64,000 nt of DNA from Chloroflexota bacterium (GTDB lineage Bacteria > Chloroflexota > Anaerolineae > Anaerolineales > Villigracilaceae), in contig JACRPQ010000015.1 in the NCBI GenBank assembly GCA_016223135.1, positions 124,001 through 188,000 on the forward strand. Direction: 5' to 3'. The notes beneath the pieces were generated by a model that ran no database searches, was not told the DNA's origin, and worked only from the letters and a program-made list of their open reading frames with translations. Shown piece by piece: positions 4,551 through 18,573 of this stretch (position 1 is the stretch's first letter; each line of letters starts with the position of its first letter). Both the position numbers and the translations under genes were made by a program.

Positions 4551-7500
4551 TTATATTGGAACCTCATACAACATTCTGTTTTGCAAATCCCACAGGCGGC
4601 GGTACAGCCCGCCGCGTTCCAGCAAATCCGCGTGTGTGCCGCGCTCGACGATGCGCCCGTGATCCAGCACAATGATTTCGTCCACGTTTTCCAAGCCGAT
4701 CAGACGATGGGTAATCAGCAAAGATGTTTTTTGCTTCATCGCCTGGAACAAGGTTTCCAAAACCTGCTGTTCGGTGAGCGGGTCGAGGTTGGCGGTGGGT
4801 TCGTCCAAAATCAGGATGGGCGCATCCTTGAGCAGCGCCCGCGCAATCGCCAGCCGCTGGCGTTCTCCGCCCGAAAGCCGCACTCCCTGTTCACCGATGA
4901 AGGTGTCGTAGCCTTTGGGCAGGCTGACGATGAAGTCATGGATGTGCGCCGCGCGCGCCGCCGCTTCCATCTCCTCCTGTGTGACTTTGGGACGCGCCAG
5001 CCGCAGATTCTCGCGGATGGAGGCGTTGAAGAAGTAACTGTTCTGCGAGACGAGGGCGAATCGTTTTCGGACCTCATCCTGATTCAGCAATTTGAGCGAT
5101 ACTCCGCCCAATCTTATTTCTCCCATCTTATACTCCCAGAAGCGGAGCAGCAAATTGGCGATGGTGCTCTTCCCCGCGCCGCTCGGACCGACGATGGCAA
5201 GCGAAGTCAAAGGTCGCAGGTCGAAGGTCACGCCGTCGAGGGTGGGGGCGGTTGTATTGGGATAAGTAAAAGTGAGATTGGAGATCTGTAATTGGTCATT
5301 GGTAATTGTCGGCGGCTCACTGCTCACTGATAATTGATCACTGACCACTGGCTCCGCATCCACCACCTCGAACAGCCTCTTCGCCGCTTCGCGGGAAGCG
5401 TTCCACATTTGGGCGGCGAGGGGTAGCGGGTTGACCGCTTCGAACGAGGCAAAGGTCATCAGCGCAAACGTTCCGAGCATCACGCCCTTGATGTTCCCCG
5501 CCGTGACCTGCGGAATGACCAGCACGAGCATTGTCCACAACCCGAGGTTGGTGAGGAGAGTCATGAGCGCCGCATGGACGCCGTTGATGCGCGCCATCTG
5601 TTTCTGCGAGAGACCGTAGGCTTTGCTTGTGGCAGCAAGGAGAGCGGCGCGGTCATCAGCGCGACCGAAGGCAAGCAAGTCGGCGAGACCCTGGATGCCG
5701 TCCACGAGTTGGGTGTGGAGGGCGGCGCGCTGGTTGATGAGGCGTACGCCGGGTTTGCGGCTGATGAGTTGGGCAAGCAGTGGCAGGATCAAGCCCAAGG
5801 TGAGGAAAAAGCCGATGAGGACAAAGGCAAGCGTCGGGTAGAAAGAAGCGAAGAACAGGGCGGTGAAGAGTCCCACGATGACGGCGGTCAGGGAGGGCGA
5901 GAGGGCGCGGACGTAGAAGTTTTCCAGCGTCTCCACATCGCCGATGATGCGGGCGAGCAGGTCGCCGCTTTTGTAGTCCATCAGGCGGGCGGGGGCGAGG
6001 GGTTCGAGGCGTTCGTAGAGCCAGACGCGCAGACGGGCGAGCAGGCGGAAGGTAACGTTATGCGAGACGAGGCGTTCAAGGTAGCGGAAGACGGCGCGGC
6101 TGATGCCGAAGAGGCGCGTGGCGACAACGGAGACGCCCAGGTCGGCGACGGACGTGGCGATGGCGGCGGTGGAAATGAGCCATGCCGAGACGCCGATGAG
6201 CGCGACGCTGGAGCCGATGGTGAGGGCGCTGAGCAAGACGGAGAGGGCAACCCAGTTCCAGGAGCCGTTGAGGAAGGAGAGCAGGCGGGGGAGGATTTTT
6301 GATTTTTGATTTGCGATTGACGATTTGCGATTGGTTGTTGGTGTATGGTCGAAGGTCGAAGGTTGAACGTCGAAGGTCGAAGGTCGAAGGGCGGAAGTGT
6401 CTGACGTTTGACTTTTGACGTTTGACTTGGATATTTGATAGGCTTTGACCATGTCCGCATACGCGCCATTGCGGGCGAGTAGTTCGCGATGTGTGCCTTG
6501 TTCGATGATGCGTCCGCCTTCGATGACGACGATGTGATCTGCCTGGAAGATGGTGTTGAGACGGTGCGCGATGGTGATGATGGTTCGACGTTGCTCACCA
6601 CAAGCCGTTTTGCCCTGCATGAGGCGGCGGGTGGAGTCTTCGAGCAGGGATTCGGTTTCGGGGTCGAGGCTGGAGGTGGGTTCGTCGAGGATGAGGATGG
6701 GCGCGTCCATGAGGAAGGCGCGGGCGAGGGCAAGGCGCTGCGCCTGTCCGCCGCTGAGTCGCGCTCCGCCTTCGCCGATGACGGTCTCGTATTTTTCGGG
6801 GAGGGTCTCGATGAAGTCGTGCAGGTGGGCGGCTTTGGCGGCTTGGATGACTTCTTCGAGCGCGGCATCAGGTTTGCCGAGGCGGATGTTGGCGGCGAGG
6901 GTGTCGTGGAAGAGGTAAGGTTTTTGAGGAACCCAGGCGATGGGGGGGAGTAATTGGTAATTGGTAATTGGGGATTGTGTACCTGTGTACGTGTTTACTT
7001 GTATACGCCCTGATGTCGGTTGAATGAAACCCAGCAGCAAATTAACCAGTGTGGATTTGCCCGCTCCTGTCTTGCCGACGAGGGCGATGTGTTGACCTGC
7101 TTTGATTTCCAGGTTGATGTTTTCGAGGGCAGGGGTGGTTTCGCCGGGATAGGTGAAGGAGACGTTTTCAAGTCGAAGGTCGAAGGTCGAGAGTCTAAAG
7201 TCGCTGACCTGTGACCTTTGACTTTCGACTTTTGACTCTGGGACGGGTAAATCCAAAATCTCGAAAATCCTCCTTGCCGCGGTCGTGCCAGACATGCCGG
7301 CATGGAATCTTGCTCCGAGGGCGCGCAGCGGCATGTAGAATTCGGGGGCGAGGATGAGCAGGAAGAAGGCTTCGCGGAATTCCATCACTTTGTAGAGCAG
7401 GCGGAAGCCGATTTCAACAGCGATAATGGCGGTGCTGATGGTCGCCAATAGTTCGAGCGCAAGGGCGGAGAGGAAGGTGATGCGCAGGACGCCGAGGGTG

Positions 7501-8189
7501 GTATCGCGGTATTGTTCGCTGACTTGGGCAATGTTCTTGGCGTGGGCTTTGGATCGCCCAAAGAGTTTGAGGGTGGTCAGTCCCTGCAGGCTGTCGAGGA
7601 AGTAGGCGGAGAGACGGGAGAGGGTCTCGTATTGGCGTTTGGTGACGATCTCGGCGCCTTTGCCGATCATAATCATGAAGAAGGGAATGAGCGGGGCGGT
7701 GATGAGGAGAATAAAGCCCGATAGCAGGTCCATCGGGAAGACGAAGAACAGGATGCTGATGGGGACGAGTGCGGTGATGACGAGTTGAGGGAGGTACTGG
7801 CTGTAATAGGCATCCAGCGCTTCGATGCCTTCGACGGCGGCTGTGGTCAATTCGCCGGTACGTCCTCCGCGTGTGTAGGCGGGACCGAGTTTGAGGATGT
7901 GGTCGAAGAGACGCTCGCGCAGGTCGGTTTTGATGCGCACGGCAACAGCGTTGGCGCTGACCTCGTTGACCCAGCTGAGGAAGGCGCGCGCGGCGATGAT
8001 GAACAGGATGATGCGGAGCCAGTTCGAGACTTGAGCAAGGGTCTGTCCTTTGAGGAAGACTCCGTCTACGGTGGAGGCGACGAGGTATGCCTGGCTGATG
8101 GTCAGCAGCCCAGCCAAAAGTCCAGAAAGAACCGTGAGGAGGAGGGGGAGGCGGGCGTCGCGGGTGAGGGAGAGGAGACGGCGGTGCAT
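4551..8189 (-). CDS. cydDC: fused CydD-CydC ABC transporter for bd oxidase assembly
   Basis: This 1212-residue protein joins two ABC half-transporters that are separate CydD and CydC in E. coli, where they export cysteine/glutathione and are needed for haem insertion into cytochrome bd. Each half has six membrane segments and an ATPase domain: GKTGAGKS, LSGGQAQRLALARAFL and ILILDEPTSSLD in the first; GPSGAGKST, LSGGERQRLAIARALL and ILILDEPTANLD in the second. Both sites look intact. The start is the ATG at 8189 (MHRRLLSLTRD); an upstream TTG at 8246 would translate a tandem repeat. Five heptamer-repeat segments are read in frame, at about 5208-5231, 5286-5350, 6296-6437, 6951-7007 and 7170-7242, all in linkers or loops. 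It follows cydB, so cydA-cydB-cydDC-SRPBCC is a likely operon. Confidence 0.93.
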   Translation of the reverse strand: MHRRLLSLTRDARLPLLLTVLSGLLAGLLTISQAYLVASTVDGVFLKGQTLAQVSNWLRIILFIIAARAFLSWVNEVSANAVAVRIKTDLRERLFDHILKLGPAYTRGGRTGELTTAAVEGIEALDAYYSQYLPQLVITALVPISILFFVFPMDLLSGFILLITAPLIPFFMIMIGKGAEIVTKRQYETLSRLSAYFLDSLQGLTTLKLFGRSKAHAKNIAQVSEQYRDTTLGVLRITFLSALALELLATISTAIIAVEIGFRLLYKVMEFREAFFLLILAPEFYMPLRALGARFHAGMSGTTAARRIFEILDLPVPESKVESQRSQVSDFRLSTFDLRLENVSFTYPGETTPALENINLEIKAGQHIALVGKTGAGKSTLVNLLLGFIQPTSGRIQVNTYTGTQSPITNYQLLPPIAWVPQKPYLFHDTLAANIRLGKPDAALEEVIQAAKAAHLHDFIETLPEKYETVIGEGGARLSGGQAQRLALARAFLMDAPILILDEPTSSLDPETESLLEDSTRRLMQGKTACGEQRRTIITIAHRLNTIFQADHIVVIEGGRIIEQGTHRELLARNGAYADMVKAYQISKSNVKSQTSDTSALRPSTFDVQPSTFDHTPTTNRKSSIANQKSKILPRLLSFLNGSWNWVALSVLLSALTIGSSVALIGVSAWLISTAAIATSVADLGVSVVATRLFGISRAVFRYLERLVSHNVTFRLLARLRVWLYERLEPLAPARLMDYKSGDLLARIIGDVETLENFYVRALSPSLTAVIVGLFTALFFASFYPTLAFVLIGFFLTLGLILPLLAQLISRKPGVRLINQRAALHTQLVDGIQGLADLLAFGRADDRAALLAATSKAYGLSQKQMARINGVHAALMTLLTNLGLWTMLVLVIPQVTAGNIKGVMLGTFALMTFASFEAVNPLPLAAQMWNASREAAKRLFEVVDAEPVVSDQLSVSSEPPTITNDQLQISNLTFTYPNTTAPTLDGVTFDLRPLTSLAIVGPSGAGKSTIANLLLRFWEYKMGEIRLGGVSLKLLNQDEVRKRFALVSQNSYFFNASIRENLRLARPKVTQEEMEAAARAAHIHDFIVSLPKGYDTFIGEQGVRLSGGERQRLAIARALLKDAPILILDEPTANLDPLTEQQVLETLFQAMKQKTSLLITHRLIGLENVDEIIVLDHGRIVERGTHADLLERGGLYRRLWDLQNRMLYEVPI
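5208..5231. repeat. heptamer repeat inside cydC half, before Walker A
   Basis: Three 7-base units close to GTCGAAG (GTCAAAG, GTCGCAG, GTCGAAG) encode TFDLRPL directly before the strand leading to GPSGAGKST. They replace the usual short turn in that position. The reading frame is kept. Confidence 0.6.
5286..5350. repeat. heptamer repeat inside cydC half, TMD-NBD linker
   Basis: Units of TAATTGG/TCATTGG type followed by TCACTGC/TCACTGA-type units. They are translated as a Ser/Asp/Gln/Thr-rich linker (SDQLSVSSEPPTITNDQLQ) between the membrane domain and the ATPase of the CydC half. Confidence 0.75.
6296..6437. repeat. heptamer repeat array in the linker joining CydD and CydC
   Basis: About 140 bases of degenerate 7-base units (GATTTGC/GATTTTT-type, then GGTCGAA-type, then TTTGACG/TTTGACT-type). 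Read in frame it gives a linker with 7-residue periodicity (RPSTFDVQPSTFDHT). The same unit types occur in intergenic arrays at 8222-8275 and 27151-27224. Confidence 0.85.
6951..7007. repeat. tandem repeat inside cydD NBD, before the Q-loop
   Basis: Three to four TTGGTAA-type heptamers pass into TGTGTAC-like units with an 8-base step. In the protein this gives NTYTGTQSPITNYQLL, an insertion between the Walker A helix and the Q-loop (WVPQ). Confidence 0.7.
7170..7242. repeat. heptamer repeat inside cydD half, TMD-NBD linker
   Basis: Units GTCGAAG, GTCGAAG, GTCGAGA, GTCTAAA, then GACCTTT/GACTTTC/GACTTTT. They are translated as a Ser/Gln/Asp/Arg-rich linker (KVESQRSQVSDFRLSTFDLR) between membrane and ATPase domains. 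Confidence 0.8.
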
Positions 8190-8221
8190 GGGGGAGGGGA
8201 GAGTCGGATAGTCAGATAGTG

Positions 8222-8275
8222 GGGTGGTCGAATAGTCGAAAGTCAAAAGTCAAAAGTCAAAAAAGTTGGAAGGTT
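8222..8275. repeat. intergenic heptamer array between cydB and cydDC
   Basis: GTCGAAT/GTCGAAA units pass into three AGTCAAA units and a degenerate tail. The array fills most of the gap between the cydB stop (8331) and the cydDC start (8189). Unit length and bases resemble the cyanobacterial STRR heptamers. Confidence 0.85.
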
Positions 8276-8330
8276 GAGGAGAGTATACCCCGTCAACCTT
8301 CCAACCTGTAAACGTTCAAGCGTCGTCTTG

Positions 8331-9371
8331 TTAGTAGATCAGCGTCTTCTTGTCAGTGCTGATGCGCTTGCGGAACATGTAGTACGTCCAGCCCTGATAG
8401 GCGAGTACGATGGGGACGAAGATGAGGGCGACGATGGACATGACCGTCAGTGTGTATTGCGAGGAGGATGCGTTGTAGATGGTCAGGGACCAATCGGGGT
8501 TGAGGCTGGAAACCATCACGCGCGGAAACATGAGGGTGAAGAAGGTGATCTGGGTCAGCACGATGTGCGCAGCAACACTGATGAAAGCCCAGCCTTCCAT
8601 CTTGCGGTTGATGAAGGAAATGGTGAGCAGGAGTGCGGCGTAGGAGGCGATGGGGATGATGCCGGGATTGACGCCCAGTTTGGTGCGGATGTCGGTGTAG
8701 ATGTAGGTGGCAATCAGCAGAAGCGTGGTAAGCGCCGCCGCGGCAAGGTAGAGTTTCTTGGAGATGGCGCGGGCGCGTTCGCGCAGTTCGCCTTCCAGTT
8801 TGAGGGTCAGGAAGTTGGCGCCATGCAGCAGAAATACCGTCACGGTGGTGAGACCGCCGATCAAGCCGTAGGGGTTGAGCAAACCGAGGGTGGTCACGAA
8901 GCCGTTCGGGCTGACGTAGTTCATGTTCGCATCAATGGGGACGCCCTTGGCAAGATTGGCGAATGCCGTGCCGAGCAGGAGCGCGGCAAGGAATGAGCCG
9001 ACGGCAATCATCCAGTCGAAGCGATTGCGCCAGGCGGGGTTGGGATCCTTGGAGCGGTATTCGAACGAGATGCCGCGAATGATCAAGCCAACCAACAGGA
9101 GGAAGAGCGGCAGGTAGAAGCCGCTGAACATGGTGGCGTACCAATGTGGGAAGGCGGCAAAGGTCGCGCCGCCGGCGGTCAGCAGCCAGACCTCGTTCCC
9201 GTCCCAGACCGAGCCGATGGTGTTGATGATGGCGCGGCGTTCCTCATCCTTTTTGCCGAGGAAGGGCAGGAGCATGCCCACGCCAAAGTCGAAGCCTTCA
9301 AGGAAGTAGAAGCCAATCCACAGGATGGCAATCAGAATGAACCAGAGTGTTTGAAGCGTTTCGTAAGACAT
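8331..9371 (-). CDS. cydB: cytochrome bd quinol oxidase subunit II
   Basis: Membrane partner of CydA in the bd-type oxidase that oxidises quinol and reduces oxygen to water. The 346-residue protein is highly hydrophobic, with the family N-terminus LQTLWFILIAILWIGFYFLEGFDFG, the loop GSVWDGNEVWLLTAGGATFAAFP and RGISFEYR. The start was set at the ATG at 9371 (MSYETLQ) with GGAGG nine bases upstream; a longer frame to 9461 would overlap cydA and add unrelated residues. It follows the cydA stop by 13 bases and precedes cydDC. Confidence 0.97.
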   Translation of the reverse strand: MSYETLQTLWFILIAILWIGFYFLEGFDFGVGMLLPFLGKKDEERRAIINTIGSVWDGNEVWLLTAGGATFAAFPHWYATMFSGFYLPLFLLLVGLIIRGISFEYRSKDPNPAWRNRFDWMIAVGSFLAALLLGTAFANLAKGVPIDANMNYVSPNGFVTTLGLLNPYGLIGGLTTVTVFLLHGANFLTLKLEGELRERARAISKKLYLAAAALTTLLLIATYIYTDIRTKLGVNPGIIPIASYAALLLTISFINRKMEGWAFISVAAHIVLTQITFFTLMFPRVMVSSLNPDWSLTIYNASSSQYTLTVMSIVALIFVPIVLAYQGWTYYMFRKRISTDKKTLIY

Positions 9372-9384
9372 GGTGGAACCTCCG

Positions 9385-10773
<1,389 letters not shown>

Positions 10774-11410: not shown

Positions 11411-11833
11411 TTACTTCGGGTTGGGATACGCCGCTTCCGTGCTGGGCGCATCCATGCCGTCAATTGAGCGGGAGCCGTACAACTCTCCATTGACTGTAAC
11501 CGTGTACACGCCCTTGCCGGAGAGTTTCATCTCCGTTTCAGTGAGGCTGTGCCAGGTGAAGGTCAATTGATTGCCTTCGAGAATCCCAATCCCTTCGTGG
11601 ATGCCGCCGGAGATCAGCCACTGCAATTTGTATTCCCCCGGCTGTTCGCCGGCAAAAATGATCAACGTGCCGCCGTATGCCTCGCCTGTGCCGTCGGTGG
11701 CATTCAACGCATATTCGCCGATGATGTTCGGCACATGGTCGGCGGGGGCGTCTGCGCCCAGGGGAGCGGGTTTGCCCCGGCACGCCGAGAGACTGAATGC
11801 GAGCAGCAAAAAGATAAGACCGATTCGTTTCAT
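11411..11833 (-). CDS. predicted lipoprotein, unknown function
   Basis: This 140-residue protein starts with a lipoprotein signal peptide (lipobox LSAC, Cys18) and continues as a small beta-rich domain (about 35-120) of alternating short strands (GGTLIIFAGEQPGEYKLQWLISGG). It is the last gene of the oxidase operon, 144 bases after the cytochrome b fusion, and is followed by a terminator. Lipoproteins at the ends of such operons often assist cofactor delivery or assembly, but nothing in the sequence shows that here. Confidence 0.75.
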   Translation of the reverse strand: MKRIGLIFLLLAFSLSACRGKPAPLGADAPADHVPNIIGEYALNATDGTGEAYGGTLIIFAGEQPGEYKLQWLISGGIHEGIGILEGNQLTFTWHSLTETEMKLSGKGVYTVTVNGELYGSRSIDGMDAPSTEAAYPNPK

Positions 11834-11977: not shown

Positions 11978-14305
11978 TCATTTCTCCTTCAGCGTCAGGA
12001 GGAATGCGATCAGGTCCTGAATTTGTTCTTCGGTCAGAATTTGCCCGAAGTTTTGTATCATCTGTCCCGCAGGATAGCCGGGGACGATGAAAGCGTTCGG
12101 TTCGAGGATGGACTGCCGCAGGTATTCCTCCGCCGTCATGCCGGCGATGCGCTCCCCTGCGCGGTCGGCGATGCCGTAGAAGGAAGGTCCGATGATGACT
12201 TCGTCCTTTTCGAGCGAATGGCAGATGCGGCAGCCCGCGTTCACGCCCGCCGCCGTTTCGTAATAGATCTTTTTACCCATCTCAGGGTCGGGGATGTGCA
12301 TGTCGCGGAAGGCGATGGTCAATGCCTGGCGCGGCGCGAGCGGAATCGTTTTATCGAACAGGACTTGCTCGATGCCTGCATCGGGTCGGTCGTACATTTT
12401 GATGGCGATGCGATGTTCGCCCGCCGGCAGAAAAATCTGCTCGAAGATGCGCGCGCCCTGATTGATGTGATTGTTCGTGGCGGCATACGTTTCATCGAGA
12501 ACCAGTTTGTGATCCACTTCCAGCGTAATGCGAACCGGATGGTCAAGATCAGGCTCCAGCGAGGGAGGAGGCGGGGCGTCATGAATGGCGTAGCCGCTGT
12601 GATGAGTCATCTGAATCGCGAGCGCCGCCGTATCTTCATTGAAAAAAGGAATCGGTCTGTTGCTCAGCCAGAGTTGAACGGCAGTGACGACCGCCAGTAC
12701 GCCAAGCAGCGGAACGATAAAACGAATATGACTTCGATTGGGTTTGAACTTGAACGCGTCCGCTTCGGACTTAATCTGTGAGCGGATTGCCCTCCCGAAG
12801 TCTGTGGGCGCCGCCCAGGCTGTGTGAACATGCGGCAGGAAAGCCGATTTCAGTTTGGGGAGGCGTTGACCTGCGACGCGCTCCTCGAGCCAGACGTTGC
12901 CTTCGCGGTTGGCGCAATCTCCCGCCGGGCAGCCGACGAATAGCGCTTCCGCCGCGCCCGCTTCGATTGCCTGCGCCGCCAGGTTGGGATTCGCCATTGC
13001 CACGCAGGTGAGCGGGACAATGTGAATGTTTGGGTCGTTGAAGTGAGCCCCGGCGTCCTGCATGGCATGGCGTTCGCAGGCGAATACAACTTTGACTTTT
13101 TCCCTGCCGGCAATCTGCGCGAGCGTTGTTTGCCACAGCGGGTCGAGCGGCAAATCGCCAAAGGTCAGCGCGTTATCGGGGCAGGAGCCGATGCACACGC
13201 CGCAGGAGACGCACAGGTTTGGGTCAATCTCCGCCTGGAATTTGGGGCGGGCGCCGTCGGTGCGCGGGATCATTTTGATTGCGGAATAGGGGCAATCTCT
13301 TTCACACAGCGTACAGCCGTCACAGCGCGCCAAATCCACTTTGACCGGGTGGAGATTTTTCGAGCGGGGCAGCAGCCACGGCAGGGCAAAGGCGGCGCCG
13401 AGGATGAAAAGCAAAACGCTCCAGAACAAGGCTTGCGGCGCGCGCAGGAAGGCGGGCAGGTAAAACAAATAGAACAAGTCAATGGGGGCTTGGGCGGGCA
13501 GCCGCGCCGCGTTGAGCGGAGGCAGCATGCCGAGGGGGAAGAACAGCGAAGCAAGCAAAAGCACGACGATGAAAATCGCCATCCAATAACGCGGCGGCAG
13601 CCATTTGGCGCGGCTCATGCGTTTGAGGTGCAGCCAGAGGAAGTAGCCCGTCAACGCGGAGAGACCGAGATGCAGGACGATGACGATCATCATGAAGACC
13701 CAGCCCGTTCCAGCCGCGTCTCCCACGAGATAATCCACGATGAAGGCTTGCCCCCTCCTGAAAGCGCCAAAGATTTTGAAAAGGCTTTGGTTGAGGAGCT
13801 GCGCGCGCTCGTCCCAGATCAACCAATAGCCGGTAATGCCGATGAACCAGACCGCTGCCGCCATGCCGACGCCCGTGACCCAAGCCAGCCAGCGCGGTCC
13901 GCGGAAGCGGTCTTGGAAGAAGGTGCGCCAGCCGTGCAGCAGCGCAAAGATGACCGCCGCGTCGGAGGCGTAACGGTGCAGCGCCCGAATGATGCGGCTG
14001 ATTGCGTTGGCTTCCATCTTCGCAACCGCCTGATACGAAAAGGTGAAGCCGAACGGGTAGAACATCGTCAGATAAATACCCGTGAGCAGGATGACGACGA
14101 GCAGGAAGACGGTGATTGTCCCCGTGTGATAAAGCGGGTTGAAACGCGGGTCGCGGATGAGCCATTGGATGGGCGCTTCCAGGCGCAGGGAAATGTTCTC
14201 AAAAAAACCAAGCAGGCGCCGGCTGGGAGAGTCGAGGCGCGCTTTCCAATCCACGCTGGGGTTGCGCTCCGCAAGGATGTCGGTGAATTTTTTGGAGGAG
14301 GGCAT
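11978..14305 (-). CDS. cytochrome b - diferredoxin - MvhD/HdrD-type - cytochrome c fusion
   Basis: This protein of about 775 residues joins four redox modules. First is a cytochrome b N-terminal domain with bis-His pairs (about His110/His124 in one helix, His212/His225 in another), followed by two more membrane helices. Second are two 4Fe-4S motifs CxxCxxCxxxCP (Cys328-338 and 365-375). Third is a hydrogenase delta (MvhD/FrhD) type Fe-S domain with Cys410, 434, 459 and 464. After a seventh membrane segment (about 529-547) comes a cytochrome c domain with CRICH (692-696) and a candidate ligand Met749. Six helices before the Fe-S part put it in the cytoplasm and the c haem outside. It follows the oxidase genes, so it may feed electrons to the ba3 oxidase. 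The ATG at 14305 was chosen; upstream sequence is tandem repeat. No Rieske gene is near. Confidence 0.88.
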   Translation of the reverse strand: MPSSKKFTDILAERNPSVDWKARLDSPSRRLLGFFENISLRLEAPIQWLIRDPRFNPLYHTGTITVFLLVVILLTGIYLTMFYPFGFTFSYQAVAKMEANAISRIIRALHRYASDAAVIFALLHGWRTFFQDRFRGPRWLAWVTGVGMAAAVWFIGITGYWLIWDERAQLLNQSLFKIFGAFRRGQAFIVDYLVGDAAGTGWVFMMIVIVLHLGLSALTGYFLWLHLKRMSRAKWLPPRYWMAIFIVVLLLASLFFPLGMLPPLNAARLPAQAPIDLFYLFYLPAFLRAPQALFWSVLLFILGAAFALPWLLPRSKNLHPVKVDLARCDGCTLCERDCPYSAIKMIPRTDGARPKFQAEIDPNLCVSCGVCIGSCPDNALTFGDLPLDPLWQTTLAQIAGREKVKVVFACERHAMQDAGAHFNDPNIHIVPLTCVAMANPNLAAQAIEAGAAEALFVGCPAGDCANREGNVWLEERVAGQRLPKLKSAFLPHVHTAWAAPTDFGRAIRSQIKSEADAFKFKPNRSHIRFIVPLLGVLAVVTAVQLWLSNRPIPFFNEDTAALAIQMTHHSGYAIHDAPPPPSLEPDLDHPVRITLEVDHKLVLDETYAATNNHINQGARIFEQIFLPAGEHRIAIKMYDRPDAGIEQVLFDKTIPLAPRQALTIAFRDMHIPDPEMGKKIYYETAAGVNAGCRICHSLEKDEVIIGPSFYGIADRAGERIAGMTAEEYLRQSILEPNAFIVPGYPAGQMIQNFGQILTEEQIQDLIAFLLTLKEK

Positions 14306-14317
14306 GGGGGCGTGTGG

Positions 14318-14388
14318 TGTTACGTATTGCGTATTGCGCCCTGTGATGAGGTACGCAATACGCAATACGAATTACCAATTACCACTTA
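14318..14388. repeat. heptamer array between coxA and the cytochrome b fusion
   Basis: ATTGCGT-type units, a short spacer, then GCAATAC, GAATTAC, CAATTAC and CACTTAC units. The array abuts and overlaps the TAA stop of coxA (14386-14388) and ends just before the next start codon. Confidence 0.8.
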
Positions 14389-16035
14389 CCAAACCCGGAA
14401 CCCGGGGGAAGTGAGCGCAATGTTCTTGATCATATCGAACAGTTGCGGACCATAGACGATCACAATCAGCGCCAGCGCGCCATACACCCACGGCGACCAG
14501 CGGTCGAGCCAGACCGGGGAGAGAGCAGGGTCTTGCATGGCTTCGGCGATGGGAACTTCCACTTCGCTCTCGACGGTTTGCTTGTTCGTGGCGGTCTTGT
14601 ACATCACCACCAGATAAAGCACGCCGCTGACGAAGAGAATCGCGCCTCCCACGCCGACCTGGAAGAGGCGGCTGTTCCATTCAGCGGGGATGTAGGGAGC
14701 AAGCCCAAGCGGCACACGGCGGGGCGCACCGAGCAAGCCCAGCACATGCATCGAGTTGGAGAAGATGATCATCCCGATAAACCAAACCCACGCTTGGATG
14801 GTTGCCCATTTGGGCTGCCAGAGCTTTTTGCCGGTGAGATAAGGCACGAGCCAATAGGAAATGCCCATGAAACTCAAGGTTACAGCGGTTGCCACGGTGA
14901 GGTGGAAGTGCCCCGGCACAAAGGCGGTGTTATGCAGCACGAGGTTGACGTTATAGGAGGCATTCGCCAAACCGCCGATGCCGCCAAAGAAGAACAGGAT
15001 GCCCGCCAACAGTTGAGCCGCCACGGAAGGGTTGCTCCAGTTAAGTTTGCCAATCCAGCGCAGCGTGCCTGTTCCGCCCTGTTTGCGGCCCGCATATTCG
15101 AGCGAGGCGATCACAGTGAAGGCGGTCATCAGCGAGGGGAAGAACACGCTAAAGGTGAGCATGGCATGGATGAACTTCCAGACGGGCGGCACGCCGGGGT
15201 CCACATATTGGTGGTGGAAGCCAAGCGGTGTGGAAAGGACGAGGAAGAGCCAAAAGGCAAGGCGGGCAAGCGAGTCGCTGAACATCTTGCCGCCGCCTGC
15301 TTGTTTGGGGAGCATGGCGTACCACGAGATGTATGCCGGCAGAAGCCAGAAGTACACCAGCGGGTGACCGGTGAACCAGAAGTATGTGCGCGCCAACTGC
15401 GGGTCCACGCCTTCGATCAAGCCGAGCGACCACGGCAAGAGCATGGTGAGGATTTCAACCGCCACCCCCAACGTACAAATCTGCCAGAGCAGGGTGGTGA
15501 CGAGGGAGCCAAACGCGATGAACGGCGTGCGTTCGTTGGGATGCTCCTTGCGCCAGGCGGCATAGGTCATGAAAAAGCCCCAGCCTTCCACCCAACTGCC
15601 GACCACGACCAGCGTCAGACCGATGTAGAAAAACGGATTGGCTTTGAGGGGCGGATAGAAGGTGAAGAGCACCGTCGCCTCGTTGGCAAGAATCGGAACC
15701 GCCGCCGTCAGCACGCCCACTACCATCATCCAAAAACCGACCTTGTTCAGGGTCATGTTTTTTAGCGGGCGCTTCAACCCGAAGATGACGTTGAAGGTCA
15801 GGAAGCCCATGATGAAGAAGGTCGTCCAGACCAGGGCGTTCAACACGCCGTGAATGGTCAATCCCTGATAATAGGATTTGATCAGCGGCTTGAGGTAGGG
15901 ATACAAATCCCAACCGGCATGTTCGAAGGCTTGCAAGGGTCCAAAGAAACTGCCGACCGCAAACGCCAGGATGGCAGCCAGAAGATGCCAGCCGATGAAT
16001 TTCTTTTCGCCCGTGGAAAGTTGATATTGTGTCAT
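14386..16035 (-). CDS. coxA: haem-copper oxidase subunit I, ba3 type (class B)
   Basis: Catalytic subunit of an oxygen reductase. The 549-residue, roughly 13-helix protein has the low-spin haem ligand in GLTIHGVLNALVW, the CuB/cross-linked Tyr motif in WFTGHPLVYFWLLPAYISWY, HHQYVDPG, and the haem ligand region PGHFHLTVATAVTLSFMGISYW. The wording around GHPLVYFWLLPAY is that of Thermus-type ba3 enzymes. The start is the ATG at 16035 (MTQYQLS) with GGAAGG upstream; a longer frame would overlap coxB. The gap to coxB is 16 bases. No subunit III gene is present, as expected for this class. Confidence 0.96.
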   Translation of the reverse strand: MTQYQLSTGEKKFIGWHLLAAILAFAVGSFFGPLQAFEHAGWDLYPYLKPLIKSYYQGLTIHGVLNALVWTTFFIMGFLTFNVIFGLKRPLKNMTLNKVGFWMMVVGVLTAAVPILANEATVLFTFYPPLKANPFFYIGLTLVVVGSWVEGWGFFMTYAAWRKEHPNERTPFIAFGSLVTTLLWQICTLGVAVEILTMLLPWSLGLIEGVDPQLARTYFWFTGHPLVYFWLLPAYISWYAMLPKQAGGGKMFSDSLARLAFWLFLVLSTPLGFHHQYVDPGVPPVWKFIHAMLTFSVFFPSLMTAFTVIASLEYAGRKQGGTGTLRWIGKLNWSNPSVAAQLLAGILFFFGGIGGLANASYNVNLVLHNTAFVPGHFHLTVATAVTLSFMGISYWLVPYLTGKKLWQPKWATIQAWVWFIGMIIFSNSMHVLGLLGAPRRVPLGLAPYIPAEWNSRLFQVGVGGAILFVSGVLYLVVMYKTATNKQTVESEVEVPIAEAMQDPALSPVWLDRWSPWVYGALALIVIVYGPQLFDMIKNIALTSPGFRVW

Positions 16036-16051
16036 GATGTTCCTTCCTTTG

Positions 16052-16552
16052 TTATGGCGTGACGATGATCGCCCCATACATCACGCCGTGCCCGCTGCCG
16101 CAGTATTCGGTGCAGATGAAGTTATATGTGCCGGGTTTGTCGAACGTGATGGTCAACTTGGAAACCTGCCCCGGCAGAACCATGAAGTTCGCGTTGGTAT
16201 CTTGAATCTTGAAGCCATGCTGGACATCAGCCGATGTGACATAAAAGGATACCGTGGAGCCGGCCGGAACGGTCATTTCGTTGGGCAGGTATTCCCACTT
16301 GGGAATCGCACGCGCCAGAATGTAGGCGTCATATTTGCCGGGCGCAATCTCGCGCAGACCGGGATTCGACCACGGGCTGTTGGGGTCGGTTGCCACCGTG
16401 CGGGGATCCACGCGCTGTTCCGGGGCAGGGACCTGAATGCCCATGCCAAAAGCCGCCACGCTGACTGCCGCCGCAAACAGCGCCAGCATCACGATTCCGA
16501 AAATCATCCAATTACGCTCGTAGGCGTCAATATGCATGGATTGTGTGCTCAT
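16052..16552 (-). CDS. coxB: haem-copper oxidase subunit II, ba3 type
   Basis: This 166-residue protein has one N-terminal membrane helix (about 15-38) and a cupredoxin domain binding the binuclear CuA centre: His112, Cys147, Glu149, Cys151, His155 and Met158. Spacing equals that of the Thermus ba3 subunit II ligands (114, 149, 151, 153, 157, 160) with a shift of two. It accepts electrons from a cytochrome c type donor. The start was placed at 16552 (MSTQSMH), where ATGA overlaps the stop of the small upstream subunit gene; the longer frame to 16597 runs into that gene. Confidence 0.95.
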   Translation of the reverse strand: MSTQSMHIDAYERNWMIFGIVMLALFAAAVSVAAFGMGIQVPAPEQRVDPRTVATDPNSPWSNPGLREIAPGKYDAYILARAIPKWEYLPNEMTVPAGSTVSFYVTSADVQHGFKIQDTNANFMVLPGQVSKLTITFDKPGTYNFICTEYCGSGHGVMYGAIIVTP

Positions 16553-16686
16553 AACGTGCCTCCGCGCCCGATCAGGATCATATAGATTGTTGCCCAAATC
16601 ACGATGAGTGTGACCACAAAAATCGCCAGAATGACGACAGTGCCGGTTGGGCGGAATTCATCGTCTGCTTTGTCTTTCTTTGTCAT
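16549..16686 (-). CDS. small oxidase subunit, ba3 subunit IIa-like
   Basis: This 45-residue protein has a polar N-terminus (MTKKDKADDEFRPTG), one membrane helix (about 16-38) and a short tail ending GRGGTL. It sits directly before coxB and shares an ATGA overlap with it. The ba3 oxidase of Thermus thermophilus has a 34-residue single-helix subunit IIa that packs against subunits I and II. Size, topology and gene position match, so I call it the equivalent; sequence identity is too low to be certain. GAGGAG lies about 7 bases before the start. Confidence 0.75.
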   Translation of the reverse strand: MTKKDKADDEFRPTGTVVILAIFVVTLIVIWATIYMILIGRGGTL

Positions 16687-16791: not shown

Positions 16792-17379
16792 CTATTGCTT
16801 GAGCATGTATTTCAAGTCATCGGCGATCTCCTCCGCGCTCACGCCGAATGGAAATACCAGTTTCAAATAGCCTTCACGGTCAACGACCAGCAGAGTGGCG
16901 GTGTGGTCAATCAGATAATCCGTGTTGGCGGAGCCTGCGGTCTTTTGGTAAAAAATCCCGTATAACGAAGCGACCTTGTCGATCTCTTCCTGCGCGCCGG
17001 TCACGCCAAGGAAGGAGGGATGGAAATGCGCCACATATTCCGCGAGTTTTGCGGGCGTATCGCGCCCCGGGTCGAGCGAGACCATGATGACTTGCACGTC
17101 CCCGGCTTTATCCCCCAGCAGGCGCAGCGCCTGCCCAACGTTTGCCAGCGTGGCGGGGCAGATATCCGGACAGAAGGTGTAGCCGAAATAAAGCAGCACC
17201 AATTTCCCGCGAAAATCACTCAGCGAAACCTGCCCCTTCGCGCCGGTTAGGGTGAAGTTGTACGCCGGGTCGGGAGATTGAATCACCGTCCCGTGGAAGT
17301 TGTGCGGGCGGAAGAAATACGCCCCAGCCGCAAGCCCCAGAAGCACTATAACTACCGAAATGAGAACCTTGACCTTCAT
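16792..17379 (-). CDS. SCO1/SenC-type copper chaperone
   Basis: This 195-residue protein has an N-terminal anchor (about 5-24) and a thioredoxin-like SCO domain on the outer face. All three copper ligands are present: Cys70 and Cys74 (FCPDICP) and His159 (IDHTA). SCO proteins deliver copper to, or reduce the cysteines of, the CuA centre of subunit II, which fits its place upstream of coxB. It is the second of two SCO-like genes in the operon, 18 bases after the first. Confidence 0.93.
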   Translation of the reverse strand: MKVKVLISVVIVLLGLAAGAYFFRPHNFHGTVIQSPDPAYNFTLTGAKGQVSLSDFRGKLVLLYFGYTFCPDICPATLANVGQALRLLGDKAGDVQVIMVSLDPGRDTPAKLAEYVAHFHPSFLGVTGAQEEIDKVASLYGIFYQKTAGSANTDYLIDHTATLLVVDREGYLKLVFPFGVSAEEIADDLKYMLKQ

Positions 17380-17397: not shown

Positions 17398-18072
17398 TTA
17401 CGGCGCATAACACAAAAACAAATGCGCTGCTTCGTAAGCCAGTTTTGCCGTCCCTTTGCTGTTGCGAACCTCCTCCGCCAGCACTCCAAGGTGACGCAAA
17501 ATGCGGTCTGCGTTGGAGACTTCGGTCGCGTAACGATATTCCGCGCGGACAATGCCCCAGCCGTCCACCAGCACAAAGGTTGGGTCAAAGGCAAAATTGC
17601 CGTCTTCTTTCCTTTCGTAATAGACTTCAAAGCCCGAGCCGATGATGGTCTTGAGCAGGGTCTGATTGGTTGTGGTTGCAAATTTCCATCTCTGCGTATC
17701 CGCGCCGATGGATTGGGCATAGGCGTTCAAGACAGCCGGCGTATCGCGCTGTGGGTCGAAGGAAATGGTGACGAACGTGACCGGAATCCCTTCCAGCTGC
17801 GCCTCGTCCAGCCTCGATTGCACATCTTGGAGCGTTTCGAAAATGCCGTAACAAGGAGCGGGACAATGGCTGTAGGCGAACGTGAAAATGACAAACTGCC
17901 CGCGCAGGGCTTCGCTGGTGAGCGGTTTGCCGTCCTGGTCAATCAGGTTGAAGGCAGGGGCGAGGTGCATGCGCGGCAGCACTTGAATCGGTTGGAAGAT
18001 TTTGAAGGCAATGGCAGAGAGCATGATGACGCCTAGCAAGCCATACAGCCCATGGAGGAAATATTTGTTCAT
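17398..18072 (-). CDS. SCO-like thioredoxin-fold protein lacking the copper His
   Basis: This 224-residue protein has an N-terminal anchor (about 8-27) and a SCO/thioredoxin domain. The two cysteines are kept (Cys70 and Cys74, HCPAPC), but the third copper ligand is lost: the usual DHT reads Asp163-Pro164-Thr165. This suggests a thiol-disulfide role, such as keeping the CuA cysteines or the other SCO reduced, rather than copper carriage. It has a C-terminal extension of about 35 residues. It lies 42 bases downstream of the Rrf2 gene. Confidence 0.85.
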   Translation of the reverse strand: MNKYFLHGLYGLLGVIMLSAIAFKIFQPIQVLPRMHLAPAFNLIDQDGKPLTSEALRGQFVIFTFAYSHCPAPCYGIFETLQDVQSRLDEAQLEGIPVTFVTISFDPQRDTPAVLNAYAQSIGADTQRWKFATTTNQTLLKTIIGSGFEVYYERKEDGNFAFDPTFVLVDGWGIVRAEYRYATEVSNADRILRHLGVLAEEVRNSKGTAKLAYEAAHLFLCYAP

Positions 18073-18114: not shown

Positions 18115-18573
18115 TCAACTTGCGGCTTGGAAGGATGCGATCGGCGACAAGCCGGCTTCGATCAGTTTGCTGTCCTCCGCCAAGTGTTCGAAAGTGATGC
18201 GTCCCATTTCATTCCGCAGAAGGTCGCGCAGGCGAATCCACTGGCAGTTGACGGGGCATTTGAGTTCAAAGGGACAGTCGCCTTCGCGCTGTACACACTC
18301 GGAGAGCAGGAGGGTCCCTTCAAAATGTTCCACCACCTGCAGCAGGGTGATTTGGCTCGGTGGGTGGGCGAGGGCGATGCCGCCATCACGCCCCGCCTGC
18401 GTTTCGATGAATCCGCCGCTTGCCAATTCCGCCACAATGCGCTGTAACAGGGCGCGGGGGATGAGCATTTCATCTCCAATTTTGGAGGTGGAGATGCGCG
18501 TTCCAGGCGCCTTTTTGGCGAGGGCAAGCACTACTCGCACGGCATAATCAGTTTGGCGGTTGATTTTGAGCAT
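18115..18573 (-). CDS. Rrf2-family transcriptional regulator, probably Fe-S
   Basis: This 152-residue protein is a winged-helix Rrf2 factor (MLKINRQTDYAVRVVLALA; recognition region about 28-60). It has a cysteine cluster at Cys93, Cys100, Cys106 and Cys110, overlapping the positions that hold the cluster in IscR and NsrR, so a redox-, NO- or oxygen-sensitive Fe-S cluster is likely. It heads the ba3 oxidase operon. Its own upstream region and that of cydA share a near-identical palindrome, so it may autoregulate and control both oxidases. Confidence 0.9.
   Translation of the reverse strand: MLKINRQTDYAVRVVLALAKKAPGTRISTSKIGDEMLIPRALLQRIVAELASGGFIETQAGRDGGIALAHPPSQITLLQVVEHFEGTLLLSECVQREGDCPFELKCPVNCQWIRLRDLLRNEMGRITFEHLAEDSKLIEAGLSPIASFQAAS

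Follow-up and report, generated by a model that had tools for sequence, protein, structure and literature searches.

What a single polypeptide that joins a cytochrome b, two [4Fe-4S] clusters, an MvhD-type domain and a cytochrome c does beside a haem-copper oxidase is the question raised by this locus, which lies in a 64,000-nucleotide stretch of a Chloroflexota genome (the window). The gene for the fusion protein belongs to a run of genes on the minus strand, listed here from its head together with the parts of the protein.

18115..18573, minus strand: Rrf2-family regulator, head of the gene run (TIGR00738 over cut-off)
17398..18072, minus strand: SCO1/SenC copper chaperone b (PF02630, 4.2e-21)
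16792..17379, minus strand: SCO1/SenC copper chaperone a (PF02630, 5.1e-42)
16052..16597, minus strand: oxidase subunit II with the CuA-type motif ICTEYCGSGHGVM, recognised by eye (PF00116; TIGR02866 below cut-off)
14386..16077, minus strand: oxidase subunit I, a B-family O2 reductase with the motif GHPLVYFW (PF00115, 2.8e-95)
11978..14305, minus strand: fusion protein, 775 amino acids from the ATG, stop codon included in the coordinates; an open frame with orthologues
13625..14143, minus strand: cytochrome b6-type N-terminal domain of the fusion, residues 55–227, with invariant histidines (Cytochrome_B, PF00033, 1.4e-9; 1q90_B)
13169..13327, minus strand: two [4Fe-4S] motifs, residues 327–379, with eight cysteines (Fer4_7, PF12838, 1.7e-9)
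12872..13090, minus strand: MvhD/FlpD domain, residues 406–478, with Cys410, 434, 459 and 464 (FlpD, PF02662, 2e-9)
12662..12736, minus strand: seventh transmembrane helix, residues 524–548 (hydropathy; a low-confidence AlphaFold helix)
12290..12643, minus strand: Ig-like beta-sandwich, residues about 555–672 (AlphaFold, alignment)
11987..12277, minus strand: cytochrome c domain, residues 677–773, with CRICH at 692–696 and Met749 (Cytochrom_C, PF00034, 2.7e-6)
11411..11833, minus strand: 140-amino-acid putative lipoprotein (by eye), directly 3' of the fusion and recurrent in loci of the same type

The modules named in the preliminary description, and their order from cytochrome b through the two [4Fe-4S] motifs, the MvhD domain and helix 7 to cytochrome c, were borne out by the domain matches. 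All four Pfam families scored over their cut-offs, FlpD through profile positions 2–79 of 123 only. No NCBIfam model reached its cut-off for the fusion among the matches listed (25 of 85), and HdrA2 aligned with residues 322–478 below its own. Among solved proteins, the b part came closest to cytochrome b6 (1q90_B, 9.7e-15), and the C-terminal, PEWY-bearing part of cytochrome b is missing, as had been noted, there being no PF00032 match in the fusion at E 0.1. For the c part, the best of the solved matches listed was 1w2l, named cytochrome oxidase subunit II, which we take to come from a caa3 oxidase.

The cofactor ligands are conserved. Across 21 aligned orthologues (the window protein and 20 others), the haem-b histidines (His110, 124, 212 and 226), the [4Fe-4S] cysteines (328, 331, 334 and 338; 365, 368, 371 and 375), the four MvhD cysteines and the CxxCH motif with Met749 were invariant; the Met749 position held another residue in two further fusions outside this set (L075 and L111). 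The histidines and the [4Fe-4S] cysteines were also present in 48/48 rows of a wider set that includes relatives without cytochrome c, and in which L034 and L114 are one record. By analogy with b6, His110/His212 and His124/His226 would form the two haem-b ligand pairs, and the MvhD domain probably holds a [2Fe-2S] centre. Six helices lie ahead of the Fe-S part and one after it, and the positive-inside rule placed the Fe-S part inside and helix 7, the Ig-like domain and cytochrome c outside in 21/21 rows, with helix limits for the charge count set by eye from hydropathy and the AlphaFold model; this agrees with the topology originally put forward. The full-length AlphaFold model was poor (pLDDT 58.7) and usable for helix positions only.

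Helix 7 is separated from cytochrome c by an Ig-like domain of about 118 residues (AlphaFold pLDDT 90.7), the His568 of which was invariant in the 21 rows of the cytochrome c-fused form (type A). This part had no Pfam match at E 0.1 in the fusion protein. Homology to the FixG_C domain was considered and gained no support: PF11614 matched neither the window protein (E 0.1) nor the relatives scanned (E 1), and structure searches returned generic sandwiches. Most of the 50 Foldseek matches listed were either carbohydrate-binding modules or sandwiches of the cytolysin and C2-like kinds, while HGSNAT stood at the top of the VIA-align listing with the best Z of 8.0 (86 residues, rmsd 2.6); FixG was not among the VIA-align matches listed, an absence that excludes nothing.

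The association with the oxidase extends well beyond the window. Among 27 type A loci, all 26 with sequence upstream of the fusion gene, the window included, had a B-family COX1 as the nearest recognised 5' gene on the same strand, with gaps of 72–761 bases between matches (761 at L075). Adjacency to a ba3-type oxidase, pointed out earlier for the window and looked for in other genomes, is a conserved trait, and the fusion protein is a conserved partner of the adjacent reductase in many uncultured Chloroflexota. The usual order is Rrf2–SCO–SCO–COX2–COX1–fusion, and SCO chaperone a was found in 22 of the 23 loci with 3.3 kb or more upstream (all but L111).

The region 3' of the fusion is more varied. 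The 140-amino-acid putative lipoprotein matched no Pfam family over cut-off and lies on the opposite strand in some loci (e.g. L040). A sulfide:quinone oxidoreductase-like flavoprotein, recognised by eye, occurs 3' of the fusion in L027 (11023–12564), L032 (11118–12554) and others, and in some relatives it stands between the fusion and cytochrome bd genes. Positions 4551–10773 of the window, 3' of the operon, hold genes for cytochrome bd together with a CydDC-like ABC exporter fused into one frame (1231 amino acids), a set also present 3' of the operon in L027, L028, L033 and L040.

We propose that the fusion protein acts as an outward electron conduit that serves the adjacent reductase by way of its tethered cytochrome c. 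This is the most likely reading, and we assign it a probability of roughly 45%. In the pathway that we infer, electrons would pass from the cytoplasmic double [4Fe-4S] and MvhD centre to the two membrane-spanning b haems and from these to the cytochrome c domain on the outer side. This domain would dock on the CuA of the neighbouring subunit II, in the way that caa3 oxidases use their fused cytochrome c. Electrons could come either from a cytoplasmic protein that binds to the MvhD domain or from quinol that reacts close to the inner b haem. The constant position of COX1 directly 5' of the gene, the intact chain of cofactor ligands and the resemblance of the c part to an oxidase-linked cytochrome c all argue for this proposal. 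Free cytochromes c near such oxidases point the same way. Eight type A-like COX1 loci were found among 61 relatives, and the fusion was present in five; L060 has an unfused relative nearby on the opposite strand, and L108 and L109 have no relative of the fusion within the stretch read. In L060 and L109, where COX1 is type A-like (61–62% identical), COX1 is followed closely on its 3' side by a free cytochrome c with 41–43% identity to the fused domain. L045, L074, L075 and L111 have such a free cytochrome c in addition to the fusion, just 3' of it. The simplest account of the origin of the protein would be the joining of a gene for an oxidase-linked cytochrome c to a b/Fe-S/MvhD module.

Several observations count against such a conduit. 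The poor full-length model is one of these. A second is energetic: outward flow from the cytoplasm wastes energy and conserves none, so that a part in O2 scavenging or oxidase priming would be expected over one in the main respiratory trunk. In addition, members without cytochrome c were common, 19 (two of them cut by contig ends) against five full-length fusions among the 61 relatives at E 1e-60, and cytochrome c therefore seems dispensable for the core function. The three type A-like COX1 loci that have no fusion beside COX1 (L060, L108 and L109) also count against the proposal.

These c-less relatives form a sister family that is also present in the window genome, as a 694-amino-acid paralogue that lacks cytochrome c and has lost the MvhD cysteines. 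It lies in a second haem-copper operon.

G000:C17:46000-64000 (L057): subunit IIa-like – COX2 – COX1 – DsbD_2 – copper ATPase – paralogue

With the paralogue as query, matches at E 1e-40 were obtained in 12 of 400 genomes of the phylum, all of sister type and five of them also holding type A. Across the sister group, the MvhD cysteines were lost in 17/22 rows and the Ig-domain His568 was absent in 19/22, and a COX1 gene was present in 19/22 loci (not in L063, L065 or L082). The plasmid searches gave one record only, from Defluviimonas, with a split version: a cytochrome b–FeS–MvhD protein without c, followed by an overlapping second gene for a helix and an Ig-like-looking domain (by eye; no Pfam match at E 1). 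This pair stands after COX2, COX1, CyoE and SCO, with a one-base overlap between SCO and the homologue.

The reductases that accompany the two families differ at the active site. A tyrosine four residues after the CuB histidine is a trait of O2 reductases. It was present (GHPLVY) in 24/24 type A COX1 rows, which include that of L060, a locus with an unfused relative, and in which L034 and L114 are one record; the sister-linked COX1 had Gln at this site in 18/18 rows, among them those of L057 and of Defluviimonas (L056). Rows with COX1 under 500 amino acids were left out of both counts, and separate checks found Tyr in L029, L108 and L109 and Gln in L062, L113 and L116. Gln instead of the active-site Tyr defines the eNOR, which, in the sections of the source that concern it, is reported from Anaerolineales and Proteobacteria and is often misannotated as an oxidase (PMC8756737). 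By this signature the partner of the sister protein is a probable NO-consuming, eNOR-like reductase. Since partners are of Tyr type in one family and of Gln type in the other, one module would serve two kinds of CuA-type terminal reductase, and, judged from sequence, such reductases have the b/Fe-S/MvhD module as an accessory, both versions of which are present in the window genome. The c-less sister would feed the eNOR-like reductase likewise, through separate cytochromes c, and the cytochrome c gene (lipoprotein-like by eye) found beside several of these reductases (L057, L068–L070, L081, L085, L113 and L116) favours a conduit. A further extension, in which a low-potential cytoplasmic donor supplies CuA through the Fe-S centres and b haems, bypassing the quinone pool and complex III, would define an undescribed class of O2/NO-scavenging conduit common to B-family O2 reductases and eNORs; we consider this unlikely.

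Partners may also have changed hands. In the module tree, L058 and L059 grouped with type A (94/87, below the starred level), whereas their main COX1 fell within the Gln clade of the COX1 tree (100/100), and this disagreement suggests that reductase partners were exchanged. Both trees were midpoint-rooted, with long branches for L056 and L060, and were built after removal of 12 listed near-duplicates and of rows whose COX1 was shorter than 500 amino acids. L058, L059 and L110 each have two COX1-like genes in succession. Those of L058 and L059 are 47–53% and 25–27% identical to the Defluviimonas COX1, and their second copies have Tyr (GHSLQY/GHSFQY); the smaller copy in L110 apparently has no HH at the CuB site.

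A close rival to the conduit is that the protein works in the maturation of copper sites, as a membrane reductase akin to CcoG that would maintain copper in the Cu(I) state, or the thiols of SCO or CuA in reduced form, while CuA/CuB reductases are assembled, with cytochrome c either fused later or passing electrons to the copper site. This is a possible, if somewhat less probable, explanation, and the abundance of copper-assembly genes around the operons suits it as well as or better than it suits a conduit. The sister gene is immediately 3' of a P-type ATPase in 20/22 loci (not in L063 or L064), and all six sister-locus ATPases tested passed the copper ATPase model TIGR01511, that of L064 not being adjacent to the sister gene. 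PF12156, which we take to be the FixI/CcoI marker, gave no match at E 0.01 in the three ATPases to which Pfam was applied. Of the 22 sister-group stretches, 19 contain a DsbD_2 homologue, PF13386 itself having been applied to L057 only. In genome G019 the ATPase–sister gene pair (L065) is located apart from the reductase (L113), which also favours copper maturation. Two loci count against the conduit: in L063 no ATPase or reductase was recognised near the sister gene, and the contig of L082 starts inside the ATPase, in a genome (G018) without a COX1 match at 1e-15. The near-constant SCO gene of type A loci, the one-base overlap of SCO with the Defluviimonas homologue and the frequent loss of the MvhD cysteines in the sister group are likewise in favour of copper maturation.

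The precedent is CcoG (FixG/RdxA), which, in the parts of the report considered here, shares with the fusion a membrane-protein plan of two [4Fe-4S] clusters and an outward Ig-like domain, and is clustered with a terminal oxidase and ccoHIS as the fusion is with its oxidase (PMC7558416); CcoI is a copper ATPase (PMC8475189, in the part concerned). CrpH, a haem membrane protein proposed in the corresponding passage as a periplasmic copper reductase (PMC13038864), offers a second precedent. No CcoG was recognised in the 61 relatives. FixG_C matches occurred in six of them, over cut-off in two (G041 and G049), and in none of the frames of the window genome; two matching frames of G041 are secreted beta-domain proteins by eye. 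However, a b6-type cytochrome b domain, an MvhD domain and a cytochrome c do not appear in the description of CcoG in that source (PMC7558416), and the sequence and structure searches described above gave no match of the Ig-like domain to FixG_C. The loss of His568 from most of the sister group, the oddity of a fused oxidase-type cytochrome c in an assembly factor and a COX2–COX1–ATPase–DsbD_2 cluster of another kind in genome G059 (L110; GHTLQY, thus Tyr), which has no sister-type gene, also speak against copper maturation. Part of the weight left after these two readings goes to mixtures.

The fusion had also been suggested as a substitute for complex III, that is, as the quinol:cytochrome c oxidoreductase of the cell. 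A protein that combines a b6-type di-haem domain with a cytochrome c, encoded next to an oxidase, is in keeping with this, and there is indeed no Rieske match in the window, as was stated at the outset. However, the fusion has neither the C-terminal cytochrome b part nor a Rieske partner, and its own genome has four Rieske matches, none on the contig of the window (C12), and encodes a Rieske protein, the N-part of cytochrome b and a protein in which the PEWY-bearing b C-part is joined to cytochrome c, in a cluster that adjoins succinate dehydrogenase genes (by eye). PF00032 was found in seven of nine genomes carrying the fusion. The other two (G135 and G435) have a cluster of a pentahaem protein, large and Fe-S subunits, NrfD and small cytochromes, which by motif counts and order is probably ACIII-like. 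The b C-part/cytochrome c protein of the window genome, used as query, had matches in 6 of 15 chosen genomes, a figure that is misleading if taken alone. A general role in place of complex III is not supported in view of the cluster in the same genome and of the nine-genome survey, and we regard the substitution as very improbable. As all nine fusion genomes have a complex III or an ACIII-like cluster, the fusion would be a side branch, which is in line with the outward conduit. The other role suggested, a ferredoxin-linked branch, is possible. Thus the modules, topology and oxidase adjacency of the preliminary description stand and its complex III substitute is unsupported; the Ig-like domain, the eNOR-linked sister, the link to copper-trafficking genes and the frequency of c-less members had been overlooked.

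That the fusion is a chimera or an annotation artefact of one assembly, of which the broken frame in the L031 MAG might serve as an example, can be set aside as refuted by its orthologues, about 48–80% identical and uninterrupted in 23 of 26 further loci, the exceptions being L031 and two at contig ends (L044 and L047). In L031 (3300–5633) the gene is split into two frames, perhaps by a sequencing error, and L044 and L047 both belong to a single MAG. A scan of genome contigs with short peptide patterns yielded 23 named loci with the fusion, all in Chloroflexota and 48–84% identical over the best segment; such patterns recover close relatives only. The five relatives with a full-length fusion were G000 (the window genome), G024, G029, G041 and G043, and three of 301 genomes drawn across the phylum had it at E 1e-55 (G000, G077 and G135). 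Some of the genomes apparently duplicate records of named loci (e.g. G024/L040 and G435/L034).

The fusion shares features with several known systems and is identical to none of those compared. Cytochrome b6 of the bc1/b6f complexes is a homologous two-haem domain with the same four conserved histidines; the fusion differs in its missing C-terminal b part and Rieske partner and in having cytoplasmic Fe-S clusters instead. QmoBC and HdrA2–MvhD modules have two [4Fe-4S] clusters followed by an MvhD domain, linked in Qmo to b haems of a NarI-type cytochrome b, whereas the fusion has a b6-type cytochrome b, no flavin-binding HdrA part and a fused cytochrome c. Subunit II of caa3 oxidases also carries a membrane-tethered, oxidase-linked cytochrome c, which in the fusion sits on a separate redox protein. 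The architecture has appeared in print, as far as we have found, only as a table entry, RME88945.1 (Table A3), listed with cytochrome b6, DMSOR_beta-like and FlpD domains and a C1 cytochrome homologue; the entry is unexplained, and oxidase linkage, Ig domain and function are undiscussed in the parts of that paper that bear on it (PMC8756737). Among the open-licence papers listed, none was recognised as treating the fusion, the linkage to an oxidase or the sister beside eNOR-like reductases, and the fusion is not mentioned in the relevant portions of three further papers (PMC6446978, PMC8114936 and PMC4653789).

The fusion bears on two questions, that of the electron supply of Chloroflexota B-family oxidases and eNORs and that of the assembly of their copper sites, and a conserved gene of which a single genome has two versions makes both testable. 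A b6–FeS–MvhD gene beside a Gln-type subunit I is also a marker that may help to separate eNOR operons from those of oxidases.
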